Below are positions 17,405-64,000 of a stretch of DNA of 64,000 nucleotides, piece after piece. Numbering within the stretch: position 1 is the stretch's first letter; every line of letters starts with the position of its first letter. Under the pieces are notes generated by a model that saw only the letters and a list, made by a program, of their open reading frames with translations, ran no database searches and was not told the origin of the DNA. Both the position numbers and the translations under genes were made by a program. The DNA comes from Hydractinia symbiolongicarpus. Lineage: Eukaryota; Cnidaria; Hydrozoa; Anthoathecata; Hydractiniidae. The stretch lies in assembly GCF_029227915.1 (NCBI RefSeq), contig NC_079886.1, positions 20,746,501 through 20,810,500 of the forward strand. The letters are read 5' to 3'.

Positions 17405-18465
17405 CGCTGTTCCTATGGATACCACCTTAAATTTAGCTTTGTTACCAGATTTTTTACTTAGATTAAAATACTTGACATCATGTGTCCCATGTTTTTTAAC
17501 AAGTAATCACGTGCTTCTGTTTCCACACAGTCGGAAAAAATTAACGCTTGAATTTGTAAATATGTTACTTTCAAGATATTTAGTTCAGTTCCGTATTGCT
17601 TTTTTGCATTTCACAACTTTTCCACAGTAGAAAAAGGAGTTGTTATTAAAATAACTTGTATTTTCATTTACTAATAATATTAGCGCCTCTCTCTTAAAAA
17701 TCTTTTTTAATTGGCGAATATAGACTTATATTTGGTACATAAAAGAAAGTGTCAAATTTCATCACATTGTGTGTATAGCAGCCATTAGTATATACTCCAC
17801 TGCCGCTGTCATGTCATGTATGAAATAAACAATAAATACAGCCACGTCAGAATTTGAAAAAAAAATTAAGTTTAAAAAAAATTATTGGTCATAGTAGTTA
17901 CGATCTCTTCAAAGTTGTCGAGCAACCAACTTATTATTTGAGAAGTTACAGTAGTATTACGCACAAGAAGTGCAAATTAAGGATTTTTTTTTCATCTGCT
18001 AATCGCGTAACTTTTGATTCATTTATCAGCTTAAATAAAGGTTGGCTTACAGAAATTATGCACGCATATGCCACCCAAGAGATAATGAATTAACTCGTTA
18101 CGCCCATTAAAATAAATGATTACCCCGGAAAACTAAAAAAAAAGATTAAAGTTTAAATTTTTCATAAAATTTTGGTAAAAACACTGAATTTTATGTTATT
18201 TCAGAAAACCAAACTTCGTTTTCTCTTTCTTTGGGATATTGAGACCGCCTAAAACTTAAATGACGTCAAATTAGTACGATTGAATAGTAGAACATGATAT
18301 TACGCTCAAATATAACGTGAGATATAGTTTATAAAGTAAACAATAAAATCAAAACATTTGTTATACAGCTGAAAAAAAGTTAAGATGTTTTTTAAAACAA
18401 GTACAGATGTTATGTAAAGCGCGGATAAATTTATATTTTAGTTCATTTAGTATTTTCGTTTTGGA
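17405..18465. other. COPS4 3' UTR and upstream region of the kinase gene
   Basis: About 1 kb without a supported exon. AATAAA at 17824-17829 is a likely poly(A) signal for COPS4. The rest is AT-rich and should include the kinase promoter. Confidence 0.55.
17824..17829 (+). promoter_or_regulatory. Polyadenylation signal of COPS4
   Basis: AATAAA about 420 bases after the stop codon, followed by a second AATAAA a few bases on. Confidence 0.5.
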
Positions 18466-38837: not shown

Positions 38838-41817
38838 TTATAATCTTAGTTCAGCATTTCTCAGAGGTTGTGATGTTTTTGCCCAATTCATTCTTTGACG
38901 TTTTCCTGCCTTCTGGAAAATTTCATACAATACCATTTGGTTTTTATTTTTGCATAAACTATATACGTCATCCCATTTTGAAGTAGCTTCATTTGGACTT
39001 TGTGTTTCTAAAACAGAAGTATTTGTATTTCATAAATGTTGCCTTTAAATTCTTTATTCGGTAAGAAAATAATGTTTCCAACCCAACAGAAGAAAAATTA
39101 GAAAGCACTGGAGGTTGACGCAAAATGGAACTTCACATTTTAATCTAACCTTTGACCATTTTTGTTGCAATGTTTTTCGTTTTCCCTCTCTTGTTAAGAT
39201 TACTCAAATACCCTTCTAAGTTCTTTATCAAATTCATTTTTAAGTCTTCTCTTTTTAACGTAGTTCCCTGCCTCGCAGTTGTAACATCTTTCACTTCACG
39301 ACGGATTGTTTTTGATTCATTCTATAATAATATCGAAAACCCAAGCCTGTCGTCACTACAATACTAAAATGCTTCATGTTCCAAATAAACATTGAGATTT
39401 TTTAATTTTCATTTTACATATATTTATTTTTTCTTGCAAGAAGATCAACACAACAACATATTAGAGAGTAAAGCATATAAAAATATCATCATTCCCATTC
39501 CAACAGCAGGTAATTATACACAAACCTGTTTAAAGCACTCTCCGTTAAACTGTTTGCACAATACTGTTGGTGTTTCTATCTTCGACAAAGGCTGCGATAA
39601 TGCTTTGTCAAACAAAAATGGCGAAAAATACGTTTTCAGACAGCTTTTTTGGGCAATTGATACGTAATCTTTTTCTGTATCAGAATTTGCTACAATGAGT
39701 GGTATAACTTCCGGTTTATCTTCTTTGCTACGATCCAATGTGTTTGTTTCATTCACGCTGTTAAATGTCACTTTTGATTCTGAATTCACCAATTGATTTC
39801 TCGTTGCACAAGAACGTGAGAAATAATTATGTTCATTCAGCACCCCATTCTTGTTATCGCCCCCTATGCTTTCTGATTGATCTTCTCCGCAGAACCTATT
39901 TTGAAATATTTGAACTCCATGTTCTCTTTCGTCCAAATAATTCCCATACCAGACAGCCAAAGCTGGAAAAGAAACGTCAGTTAGGTTTGCAGAAAAACAA
40001 AAAAAATCGTTGATGGTACTATTTCTAAATATAAAATTACCTGTAAACGTCACTTAAATGTGTCGTTTCATTATTTTTCACTACTTCAGGCGCCATATTT
40101 GGTAAATGGTAAGACCAGTGTTTTCTCGGTAGTGCTTCCACTTGATCAAATGTATGACGTGCAAACTCCATATTTCCTATTTTAGCGTTCCATTCTTTCG
40201 TAATGTAAACACTAGCTGAGTTTAAAAAGTTATGAAGAATACCTCGCTTTTGAAGATACAAACATGCCAGAATTATACCACCAAGTATATCAACTTTCCC
40301 GTTCAAACTGATTTGTACTTTTAAAATGTTGTTCACTTGGTGTAAGTTACAGTTACTGATTGGTTCCATTAACAAAATACCATGATCTTCATTAGGAGAA
40401 AAAGAAGTATAAAAACCTTGGATTAGGTTCGGGTGCCGCAGAGATCTAAAAAAAATTACATGCCAAAAATAAAATTACATGCTAAAAATAAAAATGGATG
40501 CCAAAAACAAAAATACATCGAACGAACGAAGGAACGAACGTAGGAACGAACGAACGAAGGAACGAACGTAGGAACGAACGAACGAACGAACGAACGAACG
40601 AACGAACGAACGAACGAACGAACGAACGAACGAACGAACGAACGAACGAACGAACGAACGAACGAACGAACGAACGAACGAACGAACGAACGAACGAACG
40701 AACGAACGAACGAACGAACGAACGAACGAACGAACGAACGAACGAACGAACGAACGAACGAACGAACGAACGAACGAACGAACGAACGAACGAACGAACG
40801 AACGAACGAACGTTACCTGAGCGTGTTACATTCTTTTCTTAGCAGTTCTTTACGAAAATCAGATCCATATTTAGACATGATTTTGCAGGTCAGCTTTTGA
40901 TCACCAAATCGACATGTTGTGAATTTATAAATCCCTTCTATGGTAAACATGTTCGAATTGTGCTCCAAATAAATATCGCTCATGGAAACCTGAAGTTTAT
41001 TTTCTGCATTGTCTGCGAAGTCATCAAACATTGCGTCATTTACCACGTCATGTAAGGTATCCTACAAAAATATTTTTTTAGCTTCAACAAGTAAACGGTT
41101 TTTACTTTCAGAAGTTTCTACAAATACGAAGTGTATACTGAAAATTGAAAGTAAAATCTCATATTTATTCAAAACTACTTATGCAAACCATGTGCAAACT
41201 ATTTTTAAATTTGTTATTGTTTTTTAAGTCTAAACATTAAATAAAATTCCTAACACTACATTCGCGCAAATGATTAAACCCATATATATTCTTGTAAATA
41301 AAAACCACACCTTCTATCCAATACTTAATCAGCAAAAAGGTTTTTTGCCGTATGATTGCTTTACCTACCTCATCTATGATGTTGCACCAAGTCCCTTCAT
41401 ATTGGATGAGCAAATGTAGACATGACTCATGGTTATTTATAGCAGCAATCATCACTGGTGTCACACCATTCAACGTTACACTAAAGTAAAGTTGGCAGCT
41501 ATTTTTACAAACTGGGATATGTAGCTATAGAAAATTAGTTCTAAAAATGTTAAAGTTTGCTAAAATAACTTTGATCTAATAACTGGTGTTATATTGTGAA
41601 CGTATTCATCATGCAATTTGTTTTTTTTTTACCTATTCGGATTTGCACCACGTTTTAACAAAATCTTCATCGTGGCGTATTTTCCGTTTTTAGCAGCAAA
41701 GAACAATGCTGTTTCTCTTTTGAAATTCATCGCATCTACATCAGTCCCATTCTTTAAAAAATCAACGACTTTGTTTGTTTTTCCAATGCTTGCGTAGTAT
41801 ATCATATCGACCGCCAT
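38838..41817 (-). CDS. TEX14-like ankyrin-repeat pseudokinase
   Basis: Seven exons on the minus strand: 41817-41633, 41480-41369, 41061-40817, 40445-40041, 39962-39526, 39321-39150, 39007-38838; about 575 aa. Ankyrin repeats come first (YYASIGKTNKVVDFLKNG, ETALFFAAKNGKYATMKILL, NGVTPVMIAAINNHESCLHL). A kinase-like domain follows: CKIM keeps the lysine, and SLRHPNLIQGFYTSF is in place. But the HRD position reads LHNF (no catalytic Asp) and the DFG position reads GNM, so it is a pseudokinase. MAPEVV and DVYSFGCLVWELF match subdomains VIII-IX. Vertebrate TEX14, an intercellular-bridge protein of germ cells, has the same ankyrin plus inactive-kinase order and similar HRSL/TNLE changes. Within the exon at 39962-39526 the kinase frame hits a stop (SSNISK*) and the downstream coding lies in another frame. 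Either a small intron is missed or a one-base frameshift exists. The last two exons are basic/helical. Confidence 0.75.
40515..40812. repeat. (CGAA)n microsatellite in the TEX14-like gene
   Basis: About 300 bases of near-pure CGAA, with only a few interruptions in its first 50 bases. It fills most of the 371-base intron between exons 3 and 4 and ends one base before the hexamer at the splice donor. The plus-strand NERT-repeat ORF is an artefact of it. Confidence 0.97.
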
Positions 41818-42061
41818 CTTTAATGAACGTTTTGCAAGATGTTGTTTTCTCCGTTAATTTGACGTCATAGGCAAAGCAAGTGAATTAAGACGTCGTTATG
41901 ATTAGAATTTGTAGCAGAGATAAAAGAAAAGAAAACTATTTTGTCATTGTTTTTACGCAGATATTTATTATAGCAGTAAAAAAAAATCAAAACCCAGTAA
42001 GAGAATAAAAGAAGAGAATATAAAACGCATTACAAATAGAAAAACGCGCCTCTTAAACACG

Positions 42062-42290
42062 CATCTCACAAAGGAACAAGTGCGCCTCACAAAGGAAAAA
42101 GTGCATCTCGCAAATGTACGAGTGCGCCTCACAAAGGAACAAGTGCGTCTCACAAATGTACGAGTGCGCCTCACAAAGGAACAAGTGCGTCTCACAAAGG
42201 AACAAGTGTGCCTCACAAATGTACAAGTGCGTCTCACAAAAGAACCAGTGCGTCTCACAAAAGAACATGTGCGCTACACAAAGGAGGAGG
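42062..42290. repeat. 21-bp minisatellite, 11 units
   Basis: Eleven consecutive 21-base units. Two variants interdigitate: CGCCTCACAAAGGAACAAGT and CGTCTCACAAATGTACGAGT (each plus G). Because 21 is a multiple of 3, several frames on both strands stay open, which explains the overlapping repetitive ORFs. It lies about 245 bases upstream of the TEX14-like start codon. Confidence 0.92.
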
Positions 42291-42824
42291 CGTCTAAAGT
42301 GACTTTGAAAGTAGATTTTGTTCAAGTACGCACGCGCTAACAAAATGTTCATGAACATTTCTTTAATATTTTAGATTGTATATTTTAATTGTTGTCCGTG
42401 ACCTATTAGGTTTGTTTGTGACAAAGAGCATGAGTACAAAGTCATTGGTAACTACAAAATTAATTTGCTGACTCATAAAAAAGTTTCAATTAAGAACAAC
42501 TTAAGTAGAATATTAGAAGTGTTTATGAGAGAATAGTACTCTATTTATAATCCATGTAATCTCTATAGTTCTTTATTGTAGAATCTTAGAATGTGTTGTC
42601 TCGATTACCCATTGCAATTATAAAATTAAAAAACTGTCCGAAATACATAAAAGCTTATTTACCAGTAGTAGTTTTATACGTTAACAATTTTTTTCGCGAT
42701 TTTTGCACATTTTCGAAGTTTATACCGTTGGGAATTATAAATCAGCAAAACGCGAAAGTTTTTAATGCTAAGTTACAATTTTATCCCCATTTGGTTTTTT
42801 GATATCGAGGCTTTGCCTGTTTAC

Positions 42825-46212: not shown

Positions 46213-46282
46213 ATGAAGTATGTGTGGTGTGTTGTCGTTCTGTTGGCGTATATTCAACACTTGCGTGGATATGAGCGAAATG
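46213..46282 (+). CDS. Signal-peptide exon
   Basis: ATG at 46213 opens a 23-codon reading frame (MKYVWCVVVLLAYIQHLRGY, then ERN) with a typical hydrophobic core, followed by the donor GTGAGT. It ends in phase 1, which is what K1 needs. No closer downstream exon was found before 53287. Confidence 0.65.
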
Positions 46283-49200
46283 GTGAGTTTAAAAAAATAT
46301 TGTTGTTTAGCTTGTGTCGAAAATAGTTAGTGGTTCGTTGTTTATTTGTTACCAGCAGCTCGCTGAGACTAGACCATATTCTGAAAAATTAGTGCTCATT
46401 CCTTAAAATTAAAGAACACTTTTAAATGCACAGAATAGATTATTTTATAGAAACAGAATTGGAGTTGAACCCATATTCAGGCAAACATTTTATGGCTCCA
46501 CTACTCTTCCAATTGACACACCACACATATTATCACAAAAAAATTTTTTGATGACGTTTGTTAGTCCAAGATGGGGTCATATTTCCAAGCCAAAAACGGT
46601 GACACATCAACTTTGGGAACAAAATTACGGTTGCGAAAGTTTAAGATGTGTAAAATTATTCATTGAATTATAAAAAGGCTAAAATATGACTTCGGAGCTG
46701 TTGAAAAGAATCTATATATTAATACGCCTTGTGTGTATGTGCGCACGGTGAGGCCATTGCACACAAATCACGGGTCACTTTCTTACGACGTGGCGTTATG
46801 CTAAAATTTACCAAGTTAAAAAAACGCAAATCAGGGGGTTACTATTTTTAAACATTTAATTCTCTTTTCTTATTACTTTAAAAAATAAAATTCTTTTTCT
46901 TTATTTTATTAAAGCTAATGTTTATTTTATTTGTCTTTATTTGTTTTTTTGTTTTAAAAGCCCGTTGGTCGTTATAGATAGAATAATTTAATCCCCCCCC
47001 CGGTTTACCATGTGCGCGCCGTATCACAAGGAAACAAAGTTTATCAACTGAAAATGAAAACCGAACCGAAGAAGGTTGTCTCTTTTTCAAAGTAATCCTG
47101 AAAAAAGTTATTTCAAACAATATTTACTCATCATGAGGTTAGATTAAAGCTTATTTGTTTCTTCTATCATTTTTGTGTTCTGGGACCGAGGTTGCTTTCT
47201 TTTTAAAAAAACTATCGAATTCGAATGATAATTCGAATCTAAAATGAAAAAAACAAAACTGTTGTTGTAGAGCTATTGTTGTTGTCAAGCGAGAATAAAA
47301 AAAAATTATGTTGTTGTCAGAAATATTTGTTATAAAGAAGAAAAACGTACGATGATATAACGTGAAAAAGAGAACTGATTGGAAAGGTATCAGACAATTG
47401 TAGCTAGCTATACATTTTCAATTTGTTTTCTTTGAAGCCAAGTTTAGCAATCGAAGTAGAAACTGATTGGACTTTCATCCAGAGAACGCTAGCTACCTAC
47501 TACTGAGAAAGCGAAAGAAAAGCAGGTGTGTTGTTTAGAATATCTGGTAGAGAAATGAATTTAGGTGAATAACGTTTTTAAGCCATTTACACGCTTCCAG
47601 CTAAACTTTCCCTTAAATATGAAGTTAAATATGTTTTGTCTTTAGCCTGAACATATTTTTTTGTAAGAATATACTCAGGGTCAGTTAAAGATATCTTAAA
47701 AATATGTCCAACCTCGATTGTTTGTTCTAAATAAATATAAAAAAAAAAATGCTAATAGCTATAGCAACTTATAGCAAGCTTTATTTTATTGAGGTATTAT
47801 ATATTTTTAGGCCACGAGGATAGTGTTTGTCAAGAAAGTTAAGAACTTTTTTTTGTAAGAATATACTCTAAACAATGGGTCAGAATATCCTAAGAATATG
47901 TCTAAGGTTGATTGTTTTTTTTAATATAAAAATTAGTATGATGCACAAATTTAATTAGAAGTTTACTTTTTTATTGCGTATAGATCTCACAAACTGAATC
48001 TCTTTCTCTCCAAAGCAATGGGCAAGTACACCAGGGAAAGTTAAGAACATGAAGGCTGAATCGAAAAAAACACTATTCTTATAAAATACAGCGTGTATAT
48101 CGTAGAGAAGAATTTATATAAAATGTAAAAAGTAATTTTTCCGTTGTTACTGTTTTTAACGCTACGAAGTGGTTGATGTCGTTATAATAAACCTTAATGT
48201 TAACAAAGTTAAATCAATGTTTACATCTGTTACGTTACTGTTTGAAATATATTCGATTCTTAAATTCGAAAACACTACATTGTTATCATGCACGGCACGA
48301 TTATGCATTGGGAGAGTTGCTGTATGCAATAAACTAAATAGCTAATTTGGTATGATGCATTAGAAACTGGAAATTTTGCAATAATCTTTTTTGTGTGACT
48401 TAACGATTTTTTCGACGATGTCTGGTATACTATTTTCCCTGGTGTACTTCTGACATGGCAAAGCAAGTATATAGTTTTGGCAGATTTAACTTTTTACATA
48501 ACCGTTGTTAGACACCTTCGATTATGTTAGACCTTTTGCATTTTTACTTTATTTTATTTTTATTTTGTTGTTGGACCTGCTTATATTTTTAAACGTTCTG
48601 TATAATGCAGATTGTGAGCAACCTCAATCTCAGGGCTTTTTTTCTCTTTTATTTTTATTTTTTTATTGCTGCACATGCTAATTTTTTTGGACGTTTTGTT
48701 TCAGCGGTTATAGATATAGAATAATGCAAATTGTGACTATTAAAAATTCAAATTACTGTGTTCTATGTTTTTATTTGGCACCTATCATATGGACTCGATG
48801 AGAGATTCAGTGGATTATTTCAAGGGACTTCGGCTAGTCTCTTATAATAATACGGAGACTGTGTGTCTGTAACAGGCAAAGTGGATATCGTCATTTTCCT
48901 TTGATGTTGCCGAAATTCTCTTTGAAATCACTGAAAAAATTATGTCCATTTTGCTAGCGGGTTTACTTTGTTTACATCACGTGATGAAAACGACTCAATC
49001 TGATTTGCTGAAATAAATTTAACGGCTAACTTTCGAAAAATGGTGTCCTTTCGCCACCAAAAAACCCACAAAAGAACAATCTTAAAAAAATTAAAATAAG
49101 TGGTTCAAAAAAGCATATTTAAAAAGAAAAAAGTCTAAGTGAAGAAGTAGAAAAGTGAACTTGGAAGTGAAAGTGGAGCTGCGTCGAGCTAGAAGTAAAG

Positions 49201-52200
49201 TAAAATTTAGAAGTAGAAAATAAAGGCCACCAAAAAAAGCACAGAAGAACGATCCCTTTACCTCGATAAAAAGGGAAAAAAGTGGTTTAAAAAAGCATAG
49301 CTATATATTTAAAAAGAATAGAGACCAAGTGAAGAAGTAGAAAAGTGGAGTGAGAAGTGAAGCTAGATGTAAAGTAAAGTTAGAAGTAGGAAACAAAGGC
49401 TAGAATTTAAAGTGGATTTTCAAATCACAAATAGTAAGAACTTTGATATTATTAGACGTTTGGTTTTTATGTCGGTGGAGCAAGCAGACTCGCATTTCCC
49501 AGGAAAAGCCACATTTTTTTGAATTTCCGCGCCCGAAGGCGTAGGAAATTCTTTAAAACCGTCGTTTTTTTCTTTTGGAGCATTTTTTGAGAAAAAATCG
49601 ACCCTGGGATTACACGTTCCTCCGTCACAGATGTGAACTTCGTACCCAAGCTCCCTAACTACTGGGAACTCATCTGAATGACGTTTCAGGACAAAATTAG
49701 TTTTTGTTTTCGACAAAATTTGGCACAGTTAACAAAAAAAGTATGCTGAACATAATGGTGACATAATAATTTTGATTTTTTGCCGCCTTAAATGTCATTT
49801 TAGGACAAAATTGGTCCAAAAATTAAACTATTTCATTTCCAACAAAAATTAAATTAACAAAAAAAGTATGCTGAACATAATGGTGACATCGAAATTTTGA
49901 TTTTTGTCACCTAAATGCCATTTTAGGCCAAAATTGATCCAAAAATTAAAACCACTTCATTTTTGGCTAAATCTGGCAGATTTACCAAATAAAGTATGCC
50001 GAATATGATGGTGACATCAAAATTTTGGTTTTTTGCCACCTTAAATGTCATTTTAGGCCAAAATTGGTCCAAAAATTAAAACCACTTCATTTTCGGCTAA
50101 ATCTGGCACAGTTAACAAATAAAGTATGCTGAAAATGATGGTCACAGCAAAATTTTTTGTCAACTGAATGCCGTTTAAGACCATAAACGTTTTAATCGCA
50201 AGACTTTCAACCATGAATTATAGGCTGTATTTTTTGTTAGCCATTTGAAAATGTGAGTTTATTATGACACGTTTCGTTTTGTTTGCGTTGGTTGTAAGAC
50301 ATAATGTCACTTGTGTGCTTTATCTTCAGAGGTTCATGCACCAAACCTTCTCGAATTTTTGGCACAATAACACAACGAATTAGCAGGTTTTCATCAAATA
50401 TTTTGGTAGCGGGCGGAAATTCTTAGAGCCCCCAGGGCTTCTTGTTTATATTTTACCGCGTATGTAGCCACATTTGTTTACGTTTTGTTGCATAATTCAT
50501 GTGCCCTGGCGCGTAACTAATGTATTGTCCTAAAATTCAAAATGCTACATAAAGCTGTTGGCTGACTAAAAAACGGAAAACTTTGGTTTGTTGAACTGTA
50601 ATGTTACTGATTTTACATTACTATTGCTTCTCTTTATATGTGTTTTACTAAGCATAAATAGCTAGCTTTAGTTTTAGCTAAGTGTTCCCAGTTTAAGTAT
50701 ATTTAACTGGGTGTCTTAGCTACTGTTAGCTAGCTAATGTTAGCCTCCATCCAAGAAGCCAGCTCCCATCCCCCAGGCTAGCTCTAACCATGACTTCTGT
50801 TGTTATTCCTTTTATTATCTATAGCTTACTGCTATAGTTTCCATTAGTAGGATGTATTTTTATGCCCATAGAGTATAGCTAGATGAATTCCGTTGTTTAC
50901 ATTTTCAGTGGTAAGCTCTTTTGGCTTTCGCATTTGTGTGAAAGGGAAAAAGATTGTGGTGCTAGGTGAAGCAAAGTAATTATCAGTTCATTTCTTCAAA
51001 CAAGGCATTCTTAATGAATTCAAATAAATCAGAAGCCGTCAACTTACACTTGATAATATTTTATAACCTCAACGATGTCCCGTTAGAAGAAATCCACAGT
51101 AAAATACCTTTCTTCACCAAATCCTAGCATCTTTTTTCCTGCCACGCAAAAGCCAGAGTCAAGGAGCTTACTGCTAAAAAGTAAACAAATGACGTCACAC
51201 TGAAATTCATCTTTAATGTTTTTCACAATACCTGTGCACTTTACAAGGGGGTCCACGTGCAATATGACAAGTTGAACAAATTTTATAGAATTTAAAGTCT
51301 GTGTGTTAAGTTATTTATTATAATCTATTGTAATCTAATAGCCGATGACCGTATGCCCTGAAATGACTGATTTGTTTTAAACCGATCTGTTTTAAATTTT
51401 GTGTAAACCTTTGGTGATGAACCGTATATAATGTTTGTTGATTCAAGTTTATTCTTTGCTTATTGATTTTTTGACATTTAGGTTTAAAATTGTTGGTAAA
51501 GGGCAGTATGGATCATCATACTAAAAAATAAAATTTCTTTTGTTCTTAACTGGTAGATTTTTACATTTTGTGTAAATTTTTGCGGGAGAGGATGGTTTGC
51601 AACTGACGTGACTGATTTTTCTAGATTTAAATTTGATGTTTTCCAAACGATGGCTTTTTCATATTTTTGTATAAACTTTTAAGGGAAAGACAATATTTAA
51701 AATGTGTAAAAAACTTATTTTCGTTGATTTGTGCTAACTCTTGCAGGCCTCCTTTTTGACATTTAAGAATAAAATACTGAAGGTTTTCAACTTAATGTAC
51801 ATATATTTGAGGTGCGTTATTTCTAACATTGTTATTATCTGTGTTGTGACTGTCGGTGTTGTAACTGTCAGTGTTCTTACTGTCGGTTTTGTGGGTGAGT
51901 CGTTGTTGTAACTTTTTATCAAATAGATTTTGCACCTTGCATGCTGTTCTTTTTTATTTTGTGTAAGATTTGTGTGGAGGATTTAATGCGATTTGACATT
52001 TAATATTTGTTGTAAGATTTAAAGAACATTTTTTTTGTATATGCACTGCTGATGTCAACAAAACATCTAAAGCAATCTATTTTTTCATTGGCCTTTTGCC
52101 TAAGTAGATTTTTCCACAGGCCTTATCGACTAGTCTATATAATAATACGCCAGTTCTGTGTCTCTGTGACAGGCAAAGTTGATGTGCTCAGTTTCCTTTG

Positions 52201-55200
52201 ATGTTGTTGAAAAATGCATGTCTAATATGCTAAATTTTCTGACGTTACGGCGAGACGTCAATAACATTCCTTTAACGTCAATATCCTATGTTAAATTAAT
52301 GAAGCCATTACAGTGCACATAAAACTTTGAGGCCAAATAACTTAGAAATGAGGTGCTGACGTCAATGATTTTTCACCGTGTGGGTAACTAGGGACCACCT
52401 GGGACCAGTTTGGGTAATTTTTCAAAACCTGGTTCCCCAATCCGTTTCGGAATGGACGGGTTGATGACGTCTTCAAAAAACCTTCAAACCTTAATATTTC
52501 TGCAACCGTTTGTCAAAAGTACATAATTCTATACATTTTCTTGATCAGTGTTTAAAGATCCAGTAGCCAACAGGTATACAAATTTCTAAAAAAAATTTCT
52601 ATATTGACGGGGCCATCCATTGCTGACGTTAGCAAAATTTTTAAACCCTTATATCTTCTTAACCGTTCGTCAATAGCACATCATCATATACATTTTCGTG
52701 ATCAGTGCTTTAAGCTCTACACAATATAGCCAACGTGAAAACAAGGTTCTAATTTATTTTTTGTGGATGGGATTTCTGACGTCATCATAATTCAAATAAC
52801 GCTTCTTTTTCATTTTTATCCTGCCTCAGTGGATTTTTCTACGGGCTTTATCGGCTAGTATTTAAAGGGATTCCTGCATTGTCGTGCGATTTCATTTCTG
52901 CCGCTTGTTAACAGGTGGGTCACCATGACAACATTGACACCATACCAAAAGTATATATAACTATCAATACCTAAAACGGTAGGCTGCAGAAGTTATTATA
53001 AAAAATGAGAGACTTTTTAGCTTCTCGTGCTTTAACCAATGGAGAAACAAATTCCGAACTGAAAAATTTGTTTTAAAATGTACATGTGTTGTTTTAGAAA
53101 ATGCAGTTTTGTAGGTGATAAAAGAATATTTACAAGCATATCAAATACAACCCATGCGATGCTCGACTTCTACTGTTTTTCAATGGAGATATTCACCCTG
53201 TCCCTTCTCCACCATCATTCATTTCCTTTTGATAGGTTCCATTCACTTCAACTTAGTCTTTTTGCTATCAAATTTTTTATGTTTAGTCACGTGTCAAGCA
53301 AAAATGTGTTTGAAAGAATGGAAACCAGTTTGTGGTACTAACAGTCGAACGTATTGGAACAAGCAATACCTAACAAATCATAATTGCAAGAAGAACGAAA
53401 AAGTGACCATTCGACATAATGATATATGTTATGGTACTAATACCTTTACCTAATGTTCTTTTATTGGACAAGATTTTTTGTTAGTAGAACTTCTTAAAGC
53501 CACAACTGGATGTTATTTTTGTTTTGTTTTAGCTAAATTTGGGGCAAACTTTTTCAAACCTTTGGATTCTGCCTTATCAAATGAACAAAAGGCAACAGTT
53601 GATACCAAAACCATACTTCAAATTGCTCATATGATTGGGGTCTCGCCACAACATATAGTAAAGCAGTACAACATCAACTCTGGTTTGCTTTACTATTTGA
53701 ACGAAACATCTCTAAATGATGTGGCAAAATGTTTTACGTTATCGCGAAGTAATCAGTCCATCAAATCCATGTTTGATGTGATCTTAAAAGCAGAAGTATC
53801 TCCTATGGACCGAATCCGAAAACGAATCATGGAATTTCGGAATTTCGGATTTAATTTAGTGGATAACTATTTACTGCCTACTAACAATAGTGTTTATTCA
53901 TCTCTGCATAAATTTTGCACTCTTTTACCAAATCTCTATGAACGTGCATACGACCCATATCTTCTTAGTGCAATTGCAAAATCTCATGGAAATACATCGT
54001 TGGAAGATTATAAAAAGTTCTTGAAAGCTTTCAATATTGAAAAGTCAATGAAAAATGGCATTTTAGCGTATTACGAAAAAGATACTATAAACTTAACAAA
54101 ATCGAAAGAAATGGTGAAGGAAAGCATAATAAAATTTTACACCAACATCAACGTTACCATGGTTGCGAGAAAGCTAAGCTTAAACGAGCAAGATGTTAAG
54201 AAGCTAACCTTAGTTGAGATGACCGCCAGGTATGAGAATGTGTCAACCGCTTTGGTGTACTACCTTTACCTGAGTGGAGGCGTATCAACCCAAATTTACA
54301 AAGTAGCTGAAAAAATGTCTCTTGGGGAATTATTCCACGCTTTTGGCAACTCATCATTGGTTAATATGTCGTTAGGTCACACGTTCCTGCAGATAGCTAA
54401 GTCTGGAAATTATATAAGCATGCTAGGTAGTCATCCACTCGTTTCTGTAGCTGCAATGAACGGAGTAATAGGAGTTCAAAACATATCAACCTACACTCTC
54501 ATGCAAATGTCAACCACAGCATCTAAATTACCAGAGAAGTTCTTCCTGGCTTGGTTTAACATTAATGAAATGGCGGCAACTCAAATGAGAAGTAAAATCT
54601 CAAAAATATTTAAATTGTACTACAATGGTACATCACCAATTGACCTTCAACACCTAAGTCTTTATCAACTTTCATCCAGAGATATTGTTGGTCAGGATGC
54701 TGTCAAGAAGGAATACATGAAAGGATTGCATTGGATCTACAAGCACGTAGAGTTTGGGCATGTCAGGAGTATGTATGGAATGACAGATGCAGATGTTCAA
54801 GCACTACCCGTCATAAAACTTCTGGAGAAATATCAAGGACTGGATAAAGAAAGTGCGAAGAAGTTATTTTCTATGAATGCGTTTTCTATTTTAAACACAT
54901 TTTCACCGATACAAATGCTAATGTCGAGTACCATTCAAGCGAACTGGACCTTCAGTCGTATTAACAAAACGCTTCAAGAGAAATATGGAGAATTAAGTGA
55001 GTAGCCATTACTGTTTGTCTTTGCTATTTTACATTGTACGACCTTCTTCCTTTGTTAATTTTTCGTCTTTTGTTTTTAGGATCGAAAACATTCCTTAACA
55101 TTCAAATGCTCTCCATCCCACATTTCTGTGACGTTGATGCCGAAGACAGTAAAGATATGTCCTTTCATGATCTTAGCATGAAATGTGTTGGATTATCCTT

Positions 55201-58200
55201 GACAAAGGAAGAACTTGGTTTGTCTGGTGATGTTTTGCGCAGTGCTGCTCAAAAGTCTTTGGGAGGTATAATGAAAGTCTTCTCAAATGATGACAAAATA
55301 AAGAAACATCTGATGTACCTTAACATGAGAAAATTGGCTACCCTCTCGAAAATTCCGAAATCAAAGGTCTTTTTAAATCGTTTGTCAGACATTCTTGTAG
55401 ATGGTATAAATACTACTACAGTAACGCTTGGAATGGTGGTAGGAGAACACTTGATATCAAATGATACTGTTGAAAAAGCTTTAAACGGTTGGCTTGGTAA
55501 TGAAAAATATGTTAAAGGGGTATTTGCAATGAGCATATCAAACATACTGTTGACATTAAATGTCGATTTAAAAACTCTGACTAATTTTACCATTGATGAT
55601 ATCATGACATCCACCATATCAAAAATGGATTCAAACCAGGCTGCATTTTTACCCTTTGCCCCGTCGAAACTAATGTGTAATGAAAGCAAAATGTCTTCAA
55701 CTCTGATGAAAATAAACTCTTGTTTTGAAAGCATCTATATCAAGTTGCTAGACACGAAAATCAGTGGAAAATTTACTCCTGCTGAAGTCAACGCTTTATC
55801 TGGAAGTTCTCACAACGTCAACTTAATGGATTTCTTCAGCTTATCCTCTTCTCTTTCTTCCAGTCTTACAGAAATTCGAAAGAAAGCCCGGACACCTTTA
55901 GTATTGTTAGCTCATGAAAAGGGCATTTCGATAGAAAAATTAATTGATGACAATTTAGTGCTGACGTCAGTATCTATATTTGGATTTAAAGAGAAAGTCT
56001 TACAAAAAGTATTCAGCATTCCTGACAGTGTCATGAACCAAGCATCCACCTATAGTTTACGCATGTTGCATGAACTCGAAAACAGTATTGACAATGTCAA
56101 ACAAGTGTACACAGTACCTTTGATAACCACGTTTGATGTTGTTTCTGGTCGTTTGGAAGGCAAACATGCTAAAAATTACGAACTTCCTAAAGCAATAAAA
56201 CTAATATCAACTAAAACATTGTCTACAATTTCGAAAATTTACAAAAGCTCTTTAGATTCATCGTATATTAGAAGCATAACATTGGTGAAGTTAGCTGAGG
56301 AACTTTTTGGAGTTACCGACATCTTTTTTAAAGATATGGCACTGAACATGGAGCAACTGAAGATGTTGAATGAAACTAAAATAGGAGATGTGGCACATTT
56401 CAAAGTACCTGAAGGTAAAAGATTTGAAGACATACAGCTTTCTAAATTGACAGAATTAATTTTAGACCTACCGTCGTCAGATCTACGAAAAATGTTACTT
56501 CAAACCGTCAAAACCTTAGTAAATAATACAGATGAAGGATTTGGCACTATACGTGATCTTTTTAAAGGCAGCAAATCTGGAGCTGACCTAACAGAATTCA
56601 TTTCCTTAACAATGAAAGCAGTAAATGTAGACAAAAATTCGAAGCCAGATGCATACATGGAAAAGTTACTATCATTTAACTTGACTCGGTTACCCATGAA
56701 AGTTATGAATGAGAGATTTATGACGGCGATCGCACACATAATGTTGCGTAAGTTAATTTTTGGTTCCCATTTTTTTTAATTTAAAACAATAGCAACCTAT
56801 GTTACGAAGTATTTTTTCCAGGTGTCGTTTGAACTTTTGATATTTCATTTATTAATAAATAATTTTAACTTTTAGCCAAAAACTGTCTTCTGAGTGCTTG
56901 TAACAATAGATGGGAACCTCAATGCGCAGCCGACAAGAAAACGTATGTCAACAAATGTCATCTGCAAAAAGAAATTTGCATGCAAAACAAGACCATGCAA
57001 GTTGGAGGAAATTGCTTAGGTAAAATAAAACGTAATATTCAAGTTTATGTGAGAAAGTCAAAATCATTTTTTTGCTTTGCTAAAGCACTAAGAAGCAAGT
57101 GTATGATCACGTAGATATCAAATTCCAAAGAAAAAAAGAAAATATTCTGTAAAGTTTGAAATTCCTTATTATTTGCCTTTCTCTTACAGAAGGATTTCCA
57201 AACTCGTTTTTTGTCATGCCGTTAGACAGTGTCATACCACAACAATACAAGAAGGATATTGATACAAAGACTTTATTTCAAGTTGCAACAATTGTGGGAG
57301 TTTCCACCGAAAGATTGATAAATCATTACCATATTGAAGGAGAACTGCTTGCTTATCTTAGCACAACATCATTAAATGACGTGGCTCAATGCTTCACTTT
57401 GCTTCGATTCAGTCAGTCGTTGAAGCATATGTTCGACGAAGTTCTAAAGAATGATGCATATCCAACAGAAAGAATTTACGCAAGGATGACTGTGTTTCAT
57501 GTCTTGGGATTCACATCTGTCAACAAATATTTACCACCTGCAAACAGTAGCGCATATTTCAAGCTGCATAAATTTTGCACTCTTTTACCAAATCTATATG
57601 AACGTGCATACGACCCATATCTTCTTAGTGCAGTGGCAAAATCACATGGAAATACATCGTTGGAAGATTATAGAAAGTTTTTGAAAGCTTTTAATATCGA
57701 AAAGTCAATGAAAGGAGCTGCCCTTGCTTATTTTAAAAACGATGCAATGAACAGATTATATTTCGCTTCCGTAATAAAGAACCAAACAATACAATTTTAC
57801 AATGGTATAAATCTTACCTTAGTCGGCGAGAAGTTAAGACTTACTAAGCAGGACTTGCTTTGCTTGACATTGACGCAAATGACTGCAAAGTATGCACTTG
57901 TGGAACATACGTTAGTCTTCTACTTGTACTTGAGTGGTGGTATATCAATAAACTTCTACACTGTTGCTGCAAATGTTCGTCTAATGGAGCTAAATAGCAC
58001 ATTTAAAGGATCCATTCTTTTCGATATGCCTTTGTCTAGTTTATTTACAAAAATTCAGAAATTCGGCGATAAAGCTGTAACAACAGGCTATACTCCAGCA
58101 GTTCTTGCAGCTCATCCTGTTGGTATCATAGGGCTCAAAAACATAATGGAATTGAACTTGATGGATCTTTCTACGCGCTCGACAAGTATGAGTGAGAAGT

Positions 58201-61200
58201 TTATTGTGTCCTGGTTCATGATTAGTGAAAAAGATGTCCAGCGTATGAAGACGCAGTCATTAGGTCACCTTCTAAAGTCTGAGGCGCCGTACAAATCATT
58301 TTCCATGAATGCTCTTCAACACCTTTCGCTGTATGAGATATCATCGCGTGCATTCAAATCTCATGATGATGTTACGAAAGGTTTTGTTAAAGGATTGTTT
58401 GTAGTGTTTAAATATGTAGAGTTCCAATGGATGCCGCCTATTTATGCAATGTCAGACTCCGATGTCAATTCGATGACTGTTTTGAAATTGCTTGACAAAT
58501 ATCTTGGACTTAAATCAGAACTTGCAAAAAATATTTTTGCGAGATCTACTTATGATTTGTTCAACTTATATACACCAAATGAATTGATCAGCAAAGGTTC
58601 CATCAATAAGTCATGGACTATCAGTAAAATTAATGATACCATCAAAACTACGCCCAGTAAGTAAAGAATATATTCTATTTATCTCATCAATTTTGTCTTT
58701 CTTTAGTTTTCTAAAGTTGTGTTGTATTATCATTCTTTGATGCAATAATTAGAAATGGAAAACCTCTAAAAAATTTTTTTTAGGGCGGCTGCTTGTTTTT
58801 TGAATAAACGCCTCTCTTTGTAATTTAATGCCGTAGTTTGTAAAAAAACCGGCTTATTTTGTAATAAAAATTCCGATATGTTTTGTAATGAAAAACCTGA
58901 ACCGATTTGTAACAAAACAGCTGAGTTTAAAAGAGCTATTTAATGCGTGTCCTTGTGAAATCAAATGTTTTGGTGACTTTGGTGTTGAAATTCATGATTA
59001 TGTTCTGATGATTCTGGTGTTGGAACCGATGTTTCTGTTAAATGTCCTGCTAAAATCGAATGCTAACACATGATCTTTCTTCGGCTTCACAAAAGAGACT
59101 TTTATGTGCCTGGCGCAGCTTCCTGCAGGACGTACAAGCGCTTACAGCTGACCAGTCAAAATATGTCCTTGTTGTTGACATAGCATCGTTGCAAAATTCG
59201 ATATTCAACTGTCCTAATGAATAAAAAGAAGTAAAAATCATTAAAAAATAGGCTATATCAGTTTAATAGAGCTAGTATTATTTTTTGGTAAATGAATTAC
59301 TGACTTATGTATATTTTCAAAACAAAAAATATATACGCGATTTTCTCAATTTTGCGTCCAAAGTGGCAAACAATTAATATTGTAATATTGTTTCACTATC
59401 ACACAGAAGTGCACGATCAAGTAACATGCCAGAATTAACAAAGTGTATAACCAGACACATTAAATTTATCATCACAATCATATACCAAAAAATATGTAGG
59501 ACGTTGATCAGAATTACGAATTCCAGCATTAGGATTGCAAATTGATCAATTTCAACAGAAGAATCACCACAACGTTTCATCTCACTGGGCCATTCATAAA
59601 AATTAGTTAATCAAAAGAATCAACAAAAAAATTTCATCTAATCATGAACCAAAAATGTAGCTTTGTTGTAAAATGAACCACTTATAACAAAATTCAGGAA
59701 TATTGAAAAATGAGCCGATTTTATTACAAAATGCAACACAGCACTTGTTGTTGAAACTAGTTTTGAAACAAATTGAACCTGTCATCATTTCTTGTTTTTG
59801 AGTTACAATTTTTTAACTAATCAATGCTCTTTATATTTAGAAACGTGTCAAGCAAAAATGTGTTTAAAAGAATGGAAACCAGTTTGTGGTACTAACAGTC
59901 GAACGTATTGGAACAAGCAATACCTAACAAATCATAATTGCGAGAAGGACGAAAAAGTGACCGTTCGACATAACGATATATGTTATGGTACTAATACCTT
60001 TACTTAATGTTCTTTTATTGGACAAGATTTTTTGTTAGTAGAACTGCTTAAAGCCACAACTGGATGTTATTTTTGTTTTGTTTTAGATAAATTTGGGGCA
60101 AACTTCTTCAAACCTTTGGATTCTGCTTTATCAAATGAACAAAAGGCAACCGTTGATACCAAAACCATACTTCAAATCGCTCATATGATTGGGGTCTCGC
60201 CACAACATATAGTCAAGCAGTACAGCATTAACTCCAGTTTGCTTTATTATTTGAACGAAACATCTCTAAATGATGTCGCAAAGTGTTTTACGTTATCGCG
60301 AAGTATTCAGTCCATCAAATCCATGTTTGATGCCATATTAAAGGCAGAAATATCTCCCATGGACCGAATCCGAAAACGAATCATGGAATTTCAGGATTTC
60401 GAATTTACCTTAGTGGATAACTATTTACCGCCTAGCAATCATAGTGTGTATTCATCTCTGCATAAATTTTGCACTCTTTTACCAAATCTCTATGAACGTG
60501 CATACGACCCATATCTTCTTAGTGCAATTGCAAAATCTCATGGAAATACATCGTTGGAAGATTATAAAAAGTTCTTGAAAGCTTTCAATATTGAAAAGTC
60601 AATGAAAAATGGCATTTTAGCGTATTTCGAAAAAGATACTATAAACTTAACAAAATCGAAAGAAATGGTGAACGAAAGCATAATAAAATTTTACACCAAC
60701 ATCAACGTTACCATGGTTGCGAGAAAGCTAAGCTTAAACGAGCAAGATGTTAAGAAGCTAACCTTAGTTGAGATGACCGCCAGGTATGAGAATGTGTCAG
60801 CCGCTTTGGTGTACTACCTTTACCTGAGTGGAGGCGTATCAACCCAAATTTACAAAGTAGCTGAAAAAATGTCTCTTGGGGAATTATTCCACGCTTTTGG
60901 CAACTCATCATTGGTTAATATGTCGTTAGGTCACACGTTCCTGCAGATAGCTAAGTCTGGAAATTATATAAGCATGCTAGGTAGTCATCCACTCGTTTCT
61001 GTAGCTGCAATGAACGGAGTAATAGGAGTTCAAAACATATCAACCTACACTCTCATGCAAATGTCAACCACAGCATCTAAATTACCAGAGAAGTTCTTCC
61101 TGGCTTGGTTTAACATTAATGAAATGGCGGCAACTCAAATGAGAAGTAAAATCTCAAAAATATTTAAATTGTACTACAATGGTACATCACCAATTGACCT

Positions 61201-64000
61201 TCAACACCTAAGTCTTTATCAACTTTCATCCAGAGATATTGTTGGTCAGGATGCTGTCAAGAAGGAATACATGAAAGGATTGCATTGGATCTACAAGCAC
61301 GTAGAGTTTGGGCATGTCAGGAGTATGTATGGAATGACAGATGCAGATGTTCAAGCACTACCCGTCATAAAACTTCTGGAGAAATATCAAGGACTGGATA
61401 AAGAAAGTGCGAAGAAGTTATTTTCTATGAATGCGTTTTCTATTTTAAACACATTTTCACCGATACAAATGCTAATGTCGAGTACCATTCAAGCGAACTG
61501 GACCTTCAGTCGTATTAACAAAACGCTTCAAGAGAAATATGGAGAATTAAGTGAGTAGCCATTACTGTTTGTCTTTGCTATTTTACATTGTACGACCTTC
61601 TTCCTTTGTTAATTTTTCGTCTTTTGTTTTTAGGATCGAAAACATTCCTTAACATTCAAATGCTCTCCATCCCACATTTCTGTGACGTTGATGCCGAAGA
61701 CAGTAAAGATATGTCCTTTCATGATCTTAGCATGAAATGTGTTGGATTATCCTTGACAAAGGAAGAACTTGGTTTGTCTGGTGATGTTTTGCGCAGTGCT
61801 GCTCAAAAGTCTTTGGGAGGTATAATGAAAGTCTTCTCAAATGATGACAAAATAAAGAAACATCTGATGTACCTTAACATGAGAAAATTGGCTACCCTCT
61901 CGAAAATTCCGAAATCAAAGGTCTTTTTAAATCGTTTGTCAGACATTCTTGTAGATGGTATAAATACTACTACAGTAACGCTTGGAATGGTGGTAGGAGA
62001 ACACTTGATATCAAATGATACTGTTGAAAAAGCTTTAAACGGTTGGCTTGGTAATGAAAAATATGTTAAAGGGGTATTTGCAATGAGCATATCAAACATA
62101 CTGTTGACATTAAATGTCGATTTAAAAACTCTGACTAATTTTACCATTGATGATATCATGACATCCACCATATCAAAAATGGATTCAAACCAGGCTGCAT
62201 TTTTACCCTTTGCCCCGTCGAAACTAATGTGTAATGAAAGCAAAATGTCTTCAACTCTGATGAAAATAAACTCTTGTTTTGAAAGCATCTATATCAAGTT
62301 GCTAGACACGAAAATCAGTGGAAAATTTACTCCTGCTGAAGTCAACGCTTTATCTGGAAGTTCTCACAACGTCAACTTAATGGATTTCTTCAGCTTATCC
62401 TCTTCTCTTTCTTCCAGTCTTACAGAAATTCGAAAGAAAGCCCGGACACCTTTAGTATTGTTAGCTCATGAAAAGGGCATTTCGATAGAAAAATTAATTG
62501 ATGACAATTTAGTGCTGACGTCAGTATCTATATTTGGATTTAAAGAGAAAGTCTTACAAAAAGTATTCAGCATTCCTGACAGTGTCATGAACCAAGCATC
62601 CACCTATAGTTTACGCATGTTGCATGAACTCGAAAACAGTATTGACAATGTCAAACAAGTGTACACAGTACCTTTGATAACCACGTTTGATGTTGTTTCT
62701 GGTCGTTTGGAAGGCAAACATGCTAAAAATTACGAACTTCCTGAAGCAATAAAACTAATATCAAATAAAACATTGTCCACAATTTCGAAAATTTACAAAA
62801 GCACAGATTCATCGTATATTAGAAGCATAACATTGGTGAAGTTAGCTGAGGAACTTTTTGGAGTTACCGACATCTTTTTTAAAGATATGGCACTGAACAT
62901 GGAGCAACTGAAGATGTTGAATGAAACTAAAATAGGAGATGTGGCACATTTCAAAGTACCTGAAGGTAAAAGATTTGAAGACATACAGCTTTCTAAATTG
63001 ACAGAATTAATTTTAGACCTACCGTCGTCAGATCTACGAAAAATGTTACTTCAAACCGTCAAAACCTTAGTAAATAATACAGATGAAGAATTTGGCACTA
63101 TACGTGATCTTTTTAAAGGCAGCAAATCTGGAGCTGACCTAACAGAATTCATTTCCTTAACAATGAAAGCAGTAAATGTAGACAAAAATTCGAAGCCAGA
63201 TGCATACATGGAAAAGTTACTATCATTTAACTTGACTCGGTTACCCATGAAAGTTATGAATGAGAGATTTATGACGGCGATCGCACACATAATGTTGCGT
63301 AAGTTAATTTTTGGTTCCCATTTTTTTTAATTTAAAACAATAGCAACCTATGTTACTAAGTATTTTTTCCAGGTGTCTTTTGAACTTTTGATATTTCATT
63401 TATTAATAAATAATTTTAACTTTTAGCCAAAAACTGTCTTCTGAGTGCTTGTAACAATAGATGGGAACCTCAATGCGCAGCAGACAAGAAAACTTATGTC
63501 AACAAATGCCATCTGCAAAAAGAAATTTGCATGCAAAACAAGACCATGCAAGTTGGAGGAGATTGCTTAGGTAAAATAATACGTAATATTTAAGTTTATG
63601 TGAGAAAGTCAAAATCATTTTTTTTGCTTTGCTAAAGCACTAAGAAGCAAGTGTATGATCGCGTAGATATCAAATTCCAAAAAAAAAAAGAAAATATTCT
63701 GTAAAGTTTGAAATTCCTTATTATTTGCCTTTCTCTTACAGAAGGATTTCCAAACTCGTTTTTTGTCATGCCGTTAGACAGTGTCATACCACAACAATAC
63801 AAGAAGGATATTGATACAAAGACTTTATTTCAAGTTGCAACAATTGTGGGAGTTTCCACCGAAAGATTGATAAATCATTACCATATTGAAGGAGAACTGC
63901 TTGCTTATCTTAGCACAACATCATTAAATGACGTGGCTCAATGCTTCACTTTGCTTCGATTCAGTCAGTCGTTGAAGCATATGTTCGACGAAGTTCTAAA
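46213..64000 (+). CDS. Giant secreted Kazal / helical-module protein (partial)
   Basis: Exons: 46213-46282 (signal peptide), 53287-53433 (K1), 53533-54996 (R1), 55080-56747 (R2), 56876-57019 (K2), 57190-58656 (R3), 59841-59987 (K1'), 60087-61550 (R1'), 61634-63298 (R2'), 63427-63570 (K2'), 63742 onward (R3', cut by the window). Every junction is phase 1 with GT-AG ends, so the modules join in one frame. The product would start with a signal peptide, contain Kazal-type protease-inhibitor domains, and carry long helical modules rich in N-glycosylation sequons. It is therefore probably extracellular. The R modules match no family I recognise; a mesothelin/stereocilin-type superhelix is one thought, unproven. 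The K1-R1-R2-K2-R3 block is tandemly duplicated (period about 6.55 kb). Joining of the signal exon across 7 kb is inferred from strand and phase. Confidence 0.75.
46711..48837 (+). mobile_element. Helitron-like element 1 (candidate)
   Basis: Starts with TCTATATATTAATACGCC after an A, followed by TGTGTGTATGTG. Its proposed 3' end is GTGGATTATTTCAAGGGACT, then TCGGCTAG. The 5' TC and 3' CTAG fit Helitron rules, but no Rep/helicase frame is seen and the hairpin is weak. Confidence 0.4.
49060..49410. repeat. Tandem duplication of about 180 bp
   Basis: Two copies share AAAAAGCATA, AAGTGAAGAAGTAGAAAAGT, GAAGTAAAGTAAA-like and CACCAAAAAA segments. The repeat lies inside Helitron-like element 2. Confidence 0.6.
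49690..50200. repeat. About 127-bp satellite, nearly four units
   Basis: GTATGCTGAACATAATGGTG or a variant recurs near 49741, 49867, 49995 and 50123, a period of 126-128 bases. Each is followed by TGTCATTTTAGG-CAAAATTG and CCAAAAATTAAA. The repeat lies inside Helitron-like element 2. Confidence 0.85.
52134..52858 (+). mobile_element. Helitron-like element 3 (non-autonomous)
   Basis: Begins TCTATATAATAATACGCC directly after the CTAG end of element 2 and ends GTGGATTTTTCTACGGGCTT, then TATCGGCTAG, followed by T. At 725 bp it is the clearest unit of the chain. Inside, a block of about 145 bases is duplicated (CAACCGTTTGTCAAAAGTAC / TAACCGTTCGTCAATAGCAC, each with ATACATTTTCkTGATCAGTG). Confidence 0.55.
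53287..53433 (+). CDS. K1: Kazal-like exon with one cysteine missing
   Basis: Forty-nine codons, phase 1 to 1. The core EWKPVCGTNSRTYWN is the typical Kazal inhibitory-loop and TYxN region. Only five cysteines are present. The position that is Cys in TYxNxC is Tyr (NKQYL), whereas the sister exon K2 keeps it (NKCHL). In the usual C2-C4 pairing this leaves one cysteine without its partner. Confidence 0.85.
53533..54996 (+). CDS. R1: helical module, 488 codons
   Basis: A single exon, phase 1 to 1. It begins FGANFFKPLDSALSNEQKAT and continues with a predicted run of helices. The motif hydrophobic-(S/T)-L-x-x-(L/M) recurs: SLNDVA, LTLVEM, MSLGEL, YTLMQM, LSLYQL. There are many N-x-S/T sequons and almost no cysteine. 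R1 is paralogous to R3 (DSA/DSV start, SLNDVAxCFTL, LLPNLYERAYDPYLL) but not obviously to R2. No known domain recognised. Confidence 0.85.
55080..56747 (+). CDS. R2: helical module, 556 codons
   Basis: A single exon, phase 1 to 1. The sequence is rich in short hydrophobic-T/S-L helical starts (FTIDDI, ISIEKL, YSLRML, ITLVKLAEELFGVTD, IQLSKLTELI) at intervals of roughly 40-45 residues. A few cysteines lie near the start (HFCDV, MKCVG) and the middle (LMCNES, NSCFES). It may share the fold of R1/R3, but sequence similarity is too weak for me to claim. Minus-strand ORFs inside are shadows. Confidence 0.85.
56876..57019 (+). CDS. K2: Kazal-like exon, six cysteines
   Basis: Forty-eight codons, phase 1 to 1. 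C-LLSA-C-NNRWEPQ-C-AADKKTYVNK-C-HLQKEI-C then C after MQNKTMQVGGN. This is a full six-cysteine Kazal spacing with TYVNKC intact. The P1 loop (WEPQCAADK) differs from the canonical PVCG. Confidence 0.88.
57190..58656 (+). CDS. R3: helical module, 489 codons
   Basis: Paralogue of R1, phase 1 to 1, beginning FPNSFFVMPLDSVIPQQYKK. Shares TSLNDVAQCFTL, KFCTLLPNLYERAYDPYLLS, NTSLEDYRKFLKAFNIEKSM, FYLYLSGG, ALQHLSLYEISSR and LKLLDKYLGL with R1. Elsewhere it has diverged markedly. Confidence 0.85.
58657..59840. other. Intron between the two module blocks, with a foldback insertion
   Basis: 1184 bases. Left and right parts resemble each other in opposite orientation. For example, GTTGAAATTCATGATTATGT at left matches, in reverse complement, the segment around 59530-59560. 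TTTTGTAATAAAA(T) plus (C)CGGCT occurs on both arms. It is probably a foldback or MITE-like insertion at about 58770-59790. No exon supported. Confidence 0.45.
59841..59987 (+). CDS. K1': second Kazal-like exon
   Basis: Near copy of K1. The few changes include the first codon completion and KKNEK to EKDEK. The same cysteine is missing, so its loss predates the duplication. Confidence 0.85.
60087..61550 (+). CDS. R1': second helical module
   Basis: Same length and borders as R1 shifted by 6554 bases. Differences cluster in the first 700 bases (for example MEFQDFEFTLVDNYLPPSNH); the remainder looks identical. Confidence 0.85.
61634..63298 (+). CDS. R2': second helical module
   Basis: Copy of R2, one codon shorter (KSSLDSS to KSTDSS). 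Other visible protein changes are K to E in ELPKAIK, T to N in ISTKT, and G to E in TDEGFG. Confidence 0.85.
63427..63570 (+). CDS. K2': second K2 Kazal exon
   Basis: Copy of K2 with six cysteines. The visible change near the end is GGN to GGD. Confidence 0.85.
63742..64000 (+). CDS. R3': start of a second R3 module (cut by the window end)
   Basis: The first 259 bases of the exon appear identical to R3 at 57190-57448. The exon, and perhaps further blocks, continue beyond the window. Confidence 0.85.

Follow-up and report, generated by a model that had tools for sequence, protein, structure and literature searches.

A secreted mosaic of Kazal domains and large unrecognised modules, with a tandem second unit, in Hydractinia symbiolongicarpus

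Architecture of the locus

The window analysed here is a 64,000-nucleotide stretch of the Hydractinia symbiolongicarpus genome (contig NC_079886.1 of assembly GCF_029227915.1, positions 20,746,501 to 20,810,500 of the forward strand). From window position 46213 onward it carries a gene composed of a signal-peptide exon (SP), two Kazal exons (K1 and K2) and three large single-exon modules (R1, R2 and R3), followed by a tandem second unit that the window end cuts; all of these features lie on the + strand. A gene structure built from stop-to-stop frames and splice sites joins six exons, in the order SP-K1-R1-R2-K2-R3, in one open reading frame covering 12.4 kb of genomic DNA from SP to the R3 stop. 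All 10 junctions from SP through the second unit are GT-AG and phase 1, and the nine exons from K1 to K2b, the second Kazal exon of unit 2, are each a multiple of three bases long (R3 counted to a possible donor, 58656). An in-frame stop is present in 10 of 10 introns, so the modules are joined solely through splicing.

The signal-peptide exon (46213..46282; MKYVWCVVVLLAYIQHLRGYERN plus one base, phase 1) has an ATG, a hydrophobic core and a good donor, whose score of 8 is the best among the 12 candidates listed of 103 in the window. By hydropathy the exon ranks 4th among the 103, which by itself is not unusual, and it is assigned because a near-identical protein, P0001 (described below), carries the same N-terminus and runs from it straight into K1. 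The first intron (46283..53286, 7.0 kb) contains short local repeats, including a tandem repeat of about 125-130 bases at 49729-50163 with a 52-nt core in four copies. No further phase-1 exon was found in it apart from one weak candidate (score -3.4) that is missing from P0001; the exon score is negative for real Kazal exons too (-3.5 and -0.3) and is thus a poor guide to short exons.

K1 (53287..53433; PF00050, E 4.1e-8, and aligned with P0001) codes for five cysteines and K2 (56876..57019; PF00050, E 6.6e-7) for six. Between them lie R1 (53533..54996, 487 amino acids) and R2 (55080..56747, 555 amino acids), both single exons without a known domain, R2 being at most remotely like R1 and R3. 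R3 (57190..58664) is the probable terminal exon and comprises a 488-residue module, a two-residue tail and the stop TAA at 58662-58664. In a profile search of window frames of at least 25 codons, no additional R or Kazal match had an E below 0.49, and scans of the window with Rfam and for tRNAs (bacterial setting) were empty. The joined product has no membrane segment (best 19-residue hydropathy 1.35).

A transcript-like relative

When the joined first unit (1,653 amino acids) was used as a query, P0001 was the sole protein at E<=0.1 among 6,096 candidates; the search was word-based and length-limited, and might miss relatives that differ in length or have few words in common with the query. 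P0001 has 1,652 amino acids and is 91% identical to the joined product at 100% coverage, with 160 differing aligned columns, three of them gaps. It follows the module order of the window, and identity by module is 19/23 for SP, 41/49 for K1, 446/488 for R1, 503/556 for R2, 44/48 for K2 and 440/488 for R3, making K1 the least conserved mature module. Its seven member sequences come from two contigs (source tag lgn), the longest of 5,505 nt. Contigs of this length that lack the introns, set against a 12.4-kb locus, are most simply read as a spliced transcript of a close relative, and P0001 is presumably RNA-derived.

Together, the GT-AG phase-1 exon chain and P0001 bear out a preliminary description of this DNA, which had proposed a secreted-type start, Kazal domains and large single-exon modules in one frame. 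Its exon joining holds from SP to R3, where P0001 has the same six-exon order; a continuation into the second unit does not find the same backing, as P0001 ends at R3. The locus is thus very probably an expressed animal gene that codes for a secreted SP-Kazal-R1-R2-Kazal-R3 mosaic of 1,655 amino acids, assembled from phase-1 exon modules.

The end of the protein

The P0001 C-terminus reads ...INDTILSK, and the window R3 frame reads ...INDTIKTTPSK followed by the TAA. The R3 stop sits inside a donor-like sequence, CCCAGTAAGTAA (58653-58664, +), and the Ser-Lys end is kept in P0001. The end of R3 was initially read as an ordinary splice donor, an assignment displaced by the finding that P0001 ends at the matching place. 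A candidate poly(A) signal, AATAAA (58803..58808, +), starts 139 nt past the stop, and two more occur within 556 nt, in an AT-rich window that holds 215 such motifs on both strands. Because P0001 ends at R3 and the window R3 frame reaches a stop at 58662-58664, we take SP-K1-R1-R2-K2-R3, of 1,655 residues, as the best product.

One alternative, which we consider unlikely, is a single longer chain in which R3 is spliced on to K1b, the first exon of unit 2, via the donor CCCA|GTAAGT, giving a protein of two or more units. The donor at 58657 and the acceptor ending at 59840 are both phase 1, and unit 2 appears to have no signal-peptide exon of its own. The stop just inside the donor is no objection: R1 is a related module, and at its corresponding end the donor TTAAGTGAGTAG (54993-55004, +), whose use is supported by P0001, contains an in-frame stop as well, five bases in, at 55002. 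This second case of a stop inside a donor makes the longer chain more plausible. Against this, P0001 stops with ...LSK at the equivalent position, where the window sequence gives ...PSK-stop, and splicing from R3 to K1b finds no transcript support in P0001. R3 may have retained an ancestral donor that today serves as a stop, or one that is spliced only occasionally. Since the R3 stop lies inside a usable donor (AGTAAGTAA), a splicing choice could conceivably switch between one-unit and multi-unit inhibitor chains, in a gene growing by whole K-R-R-K-R units whose R modules would form a new extracellular domain family of one animal lineage; this larger proposal we regard as a long shot.

The tandem second unit

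A 6.55-kb unit is tandemly repeated in the window, with mosaic divergence between the copies. The second unit consists of K1b (59841..59987; Pfam Kazal_1, E 3.8e-8), R1b (60087..61550, 97% identical to R1), R2b (61634..63298, 99% identical to R2), K2b (63427..63570, detected solely by a profile built on K1 and K2) and R3b (63742..64000, cut at the window end), and its frame stays open to that end. No signal-peptide exon was found for it, the lone candidate in 58665-59840 having a hydropathy of 0.68 versus 2.68 at 46213.

The units were compared over 62 of 64 differing columns (two at the alignment end were dropped, and a three-base gap counts as three). Two tracts, 54247-56188 (1,942 bp) and 57131-57448, are free of differences, whereas 53276-53894 (619 bp) has 41 (6.6%), 53895-54246 has three and 56189-57130 has 18; a difference-free gap of 1,942 bp was matched by 0 of 20,000 random placements. 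This pattern is what might be expected if a block from K1 to beyond R3 was duplicated in tandem after the gene was assembled, and if conversion or unequal exchange then made parts of the copies alike again. Where the copies differ in amino acid (25 aligned positions), P0001 agrees with copy 1 at 13, with copy 2 at eight and with neither at four.

The long difference-free stretches and the lack of a recognisable signal-peptide exon would also suit an assembly artefact (an uncollapsed haplotype) or a dead partial copy. We consider that explanation possible but less likely, given the 41 differences within 619 bp, the divergence of the sequences just upstream of K1 and K1b (identical in 20 of 46 columns) and a unit 2 frame without interruption up to the window end.

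Signs of coding constraint are seen in R1 and R3. Nonsynonymous (dN) and synonymous (dS) divergence between R1 and R1b are 0.013 and 0.061 (dN/dS about 0.21), and between R1 and R3 they are 0.486 and 2.24 (dN/dS about 0.22, a rough value because dS is saturated). Synonymous sites in the latter pair are mostly saturated, with the exception of the windows at residues 121-160 and 141-180 (dS 0.19 and 0.49), for which an older conversion tract is one explanation and very strong constraint at that place another. R2 and R2b differ by one synonymous and five nonsynonymous changes and are too alike for a verdict.

The R modules

Identity between R1 and R3 is 47%, and R2 is possibly a remote relative of both. 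The R2-R3 pair gives a BLASTP E of 0.002, and pairwise scores were reached by 7 of 300 shuffles for R1-R2 and by 3 of 300 for R3-R2. Column shuffles destroy amphipathic periodicity, so the comparison of R2 with R1/R3 was repeated with reversed block shuffles: gapless segments were reached by 0/120 column shuffles and 0/200 block-shuffled reversed controls, and the best gapped score by 1/120 and 8/200. Against a profile built without R2, three of 1,000 shuffles outscore R2, although among the single stretches listed the top score, 7.8 bits, belongs to R2. The hhalign probability for R2 versus R1/R3 is 2.4%.

That the R modules are unrecognised, as had been noted, is supported by searches of Pfam, NCBIfam and PDB that returned no match above threshold; no domain model of these libraries covers R1-R3. 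In Pfam and NCBIfam no match to R1, R2 or R3 reached its cut-off (NCBIfam gave one R1 match below it, E 0.073), and the best match to PDB sequences had an E of 0.45. R1 alone, searched against 5.8 billion proteins, had no match at E<=0.01 among 5,320 candidates (the length range of that search leaves P0001 out), and an R1/R1b/R3/R2/R2b alignment gave 0 of 6,374 at E<=1. Pattern matches in viral contigs (33 for R1/R3, one for R2) and in GTDB genomes (96 for R1/R3) yielded none that was confirmed. The animal share of the searched collections is unstated, and absence of R from them is no sign of rarity among animals. Among the paper titles listed in literature searches, none was recognised as describing this Kazal/R architecture.

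Several Pfam matches below cut-off were rejected as chance. In P0001 these were DUF3848 (E 1.6e-5; 25.3 bits against 30, over two stretches), Peptidase_C5 (E 0.0014; 18.8 bits against 21.3) and DUF1514, FokI_D3, NttA and PCI (E 0.014 to 1.7); in the window modules they were DUF3848 (E 0.03 in R1, 0.095 in R3), Peptidase_C5 (0.069 in R1) and DUF1514 (0.62 in R3). The summed DUF3848 score counts a single resemblance twice, R1 and R3 being related copies.

The preliminary description also saw in the R modules an alpha-helical solenoid in which hydrophobic-(S/T)-L-x-x-L starts recur every 40-45 residues. The recurrence was not upheld: block shuffles attained the score of the best period in 36 of 150 cases for R1/R3 and in 40 of 150 for R2, leaving regular units of that length without sequence support. 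Offsets of 47, 96, 150, 200 and 404 among the strongest self-matches in R1/R3 had hinted at a repeat of about 50 residues, an idea dropped when the period test failed. Gapped self-alignments were not above the highest of 12 shuffles for each module. Against column shuffles, self-similarity in R1/R3 was reached by 7/120 (gapped score) and 0/120 (gapless sum), and in R2 by 42/120 and 3/120; block shuffles reached the total signal in 7/150 (R1/R3) and 16/150 (R2).

The helical part of that proposal survives weakly. Hydropathy periodicity peaks at 100 degrees in R1 (z 3.0), at 135 degrees in R2 (z 4.5; z 2.7 at 95) and at 125 degrees in R3 (z 3.2; z 0.6 at 100). AlphaFold2 models from 3-sequence alignments are dominated by helices, and DSSP assigns nearly all of the low-confidence R1 model to helix. 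Structure prediction thus gave helix-rich models without a confident fold: the predicted local distance difference test (pLDDT) and template modelling (pTM) scores are 36.2 and 0.21 for R1, and 30.8 and 0.18 for R2.

The mesothelin/stereocilin/otoancorin superfamily (PMC2628672) offers a parallel in being large, extracellular and predicted helical, although the R modules look helical in low-confidence models only. The word Kazal is absent from the main text of that paper, and in contrast to the superfamily no membrane segment is seen in the window product. R1, R2 and R3 had no mesothelin-superfamily Pfam match at E<=1, mesothelin was not among PDB matches at E<=10, and no significant period corresponding to the roughly 50-residue ARM-type helical repeats of that superfamily was found in R1/R3 or R2. 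Both libraries, Pfam and PDB, presumably contain mesothelin.

Kazal domains and the proposed role of the protein

The Kazal assignments are above the Pfam cut-off of 21 bits for PF00050 (K1 33.6, K2 29.7, K1b 33.6), and Pfam recognises two Kazal stretches in P0001. K2 and K2b have six cysteines in Kazal spacing. In K1, K1b and the K1 of P0001 the fourth Kazal cysteine is Gln, leaving five cysteines in 3/3 sequences. Following Kazal numbering, we take the P1 residue to be Lys in K1 and Asn in K2. In Kazal domains the C2-C4 disulfide holds the reactive loop. The mature protein has 20 cysteines (K1 5, R1 2, R2 4, K2 6, R3 3), an even total, yet the counts in K1 and R3 are odd; their unpaired cysteines could bond, making a K1-R3 or an intermolecular disulfide possible. 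The window product has 29 N-glycosylation sequons and P0001, with the same module order and the same end, has 37; 27 are common to both, two are specific to the window and 10 to P0001.

From the sequence, the protein is most likely a secreted, heavily N-glycosylated scaffold with inhibitor-type heads, a function that we infer. The large R modules, if the models are a guide, would act outside the cell as largely helical scaffolds, binding other molecules and keeping the Kazal heads at a distance from each other, and K1, with its probable P1 Lys, would inhibit a trypsin-like protease. We propose these two roles jointly in a tentative way, a little short of an even prospect; the explanation as a whole, comprising architecture, duplication and a scaffold with inhibitor heads, we judge evenly balanced between right and wrong.

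Several points weigh against it. K1 lacks the fourth Kazal cysteine, a partner in the reactive-loop disulfide C2-C4, and the probable P1 of K2 is Asn. Helical periodicity is clear only in R1, and the R modules have no usable fold at the pLDDT values reached, the models being too poor for a fold search. The R2-R2b pair gives no sign of constraint, and the RNA origin of P0001 is our deduction rather than a statement of its source.

Kazal units can play another part: agrin- and follistatin-type Kazal-like domains act as structural spacers. The same could hold here, with the R modules carrying the function (adhesion, matrix or ligand binding), which we consider a serious if less probable possibility. 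The five cysteines of K1 in 3/3 sequences (two window copies and P0001) fit spacers, as do the even total of 20 cysteines, which may allow a K1-R3 or intermolecular disulfide, and the 1,530 of 1,655 residues contributed by R. On the other side, the probable P1 Lys of K1 and the adjacent residues are unchanged in P0001, although K1 is the least conserved mature module. With Kazal-type inhibitors (PF00050), including the Hydra Kazal-like peptides of PMC10945409, the window protein shares Kazal domains above the Pfam cut-off and a secreted-type form; unlike those, it has two Kazal domains separated by unrecognised modules of about 500 residues and a K1 that is one cysteine short.

About 92% of this 1,655-residue secreted animal protein consists of modules that the family models and solved structures used do not recognise; their frames are intact, and R1 and R3 show signs of constraint. 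The locus offers a tractable case in which an extracellular domain spreads through the shuffling of phase-1 exons and the duplication of whole units, and in which probable conversion tracts can be seen. If the Kazal heads are active, the protein would be a large and unusual scaffold for inhibitors. Secreted genes restricted to one taxon are common among animals, which makes the locus interesting rather than startling.

Other features of the window

A fucosyltransferase-like fragment (1-387, -; FUT8_N_cat, E 7.4e-4, below cut-off) is cut by the window edge. At 5513-6863 (+) an RVT_1 match (E 4.5e-5) is followed by a GIY-YIG match (E 2.9e-4), both below the Pfam cut-off, which we take to be a decayed Penelope-like element. 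This element and the COP9 and kinase exons listed below point to a eukaryote, and the Kazal architecture points to an animal. For a 965-codon open frame at 21526-24423 (-), the Pfam search gave no hit at E<=0.001.

An array of 8- and 12-base spaced repeats, with many copies 95-96% alike, occupies 40439-40842 next to a kinase-like exon (40037-40471, -). Of the six frames across 40500-40800, four contain no stop and the other two a single stop each, so a long open frame in this array is no evidence of a gene. A 21-base tandem repeat at 42023-42316 (10 overlapping 105-nt copies) lies within a + strand open frame, 41924-42340. Further kinase exons lie at 18451-20092 (+), and 13703-14116 (+) holds an exon of COP9 signalosome subunit 4 (PDB 4d0p, E 1.2e-14; PF22241).

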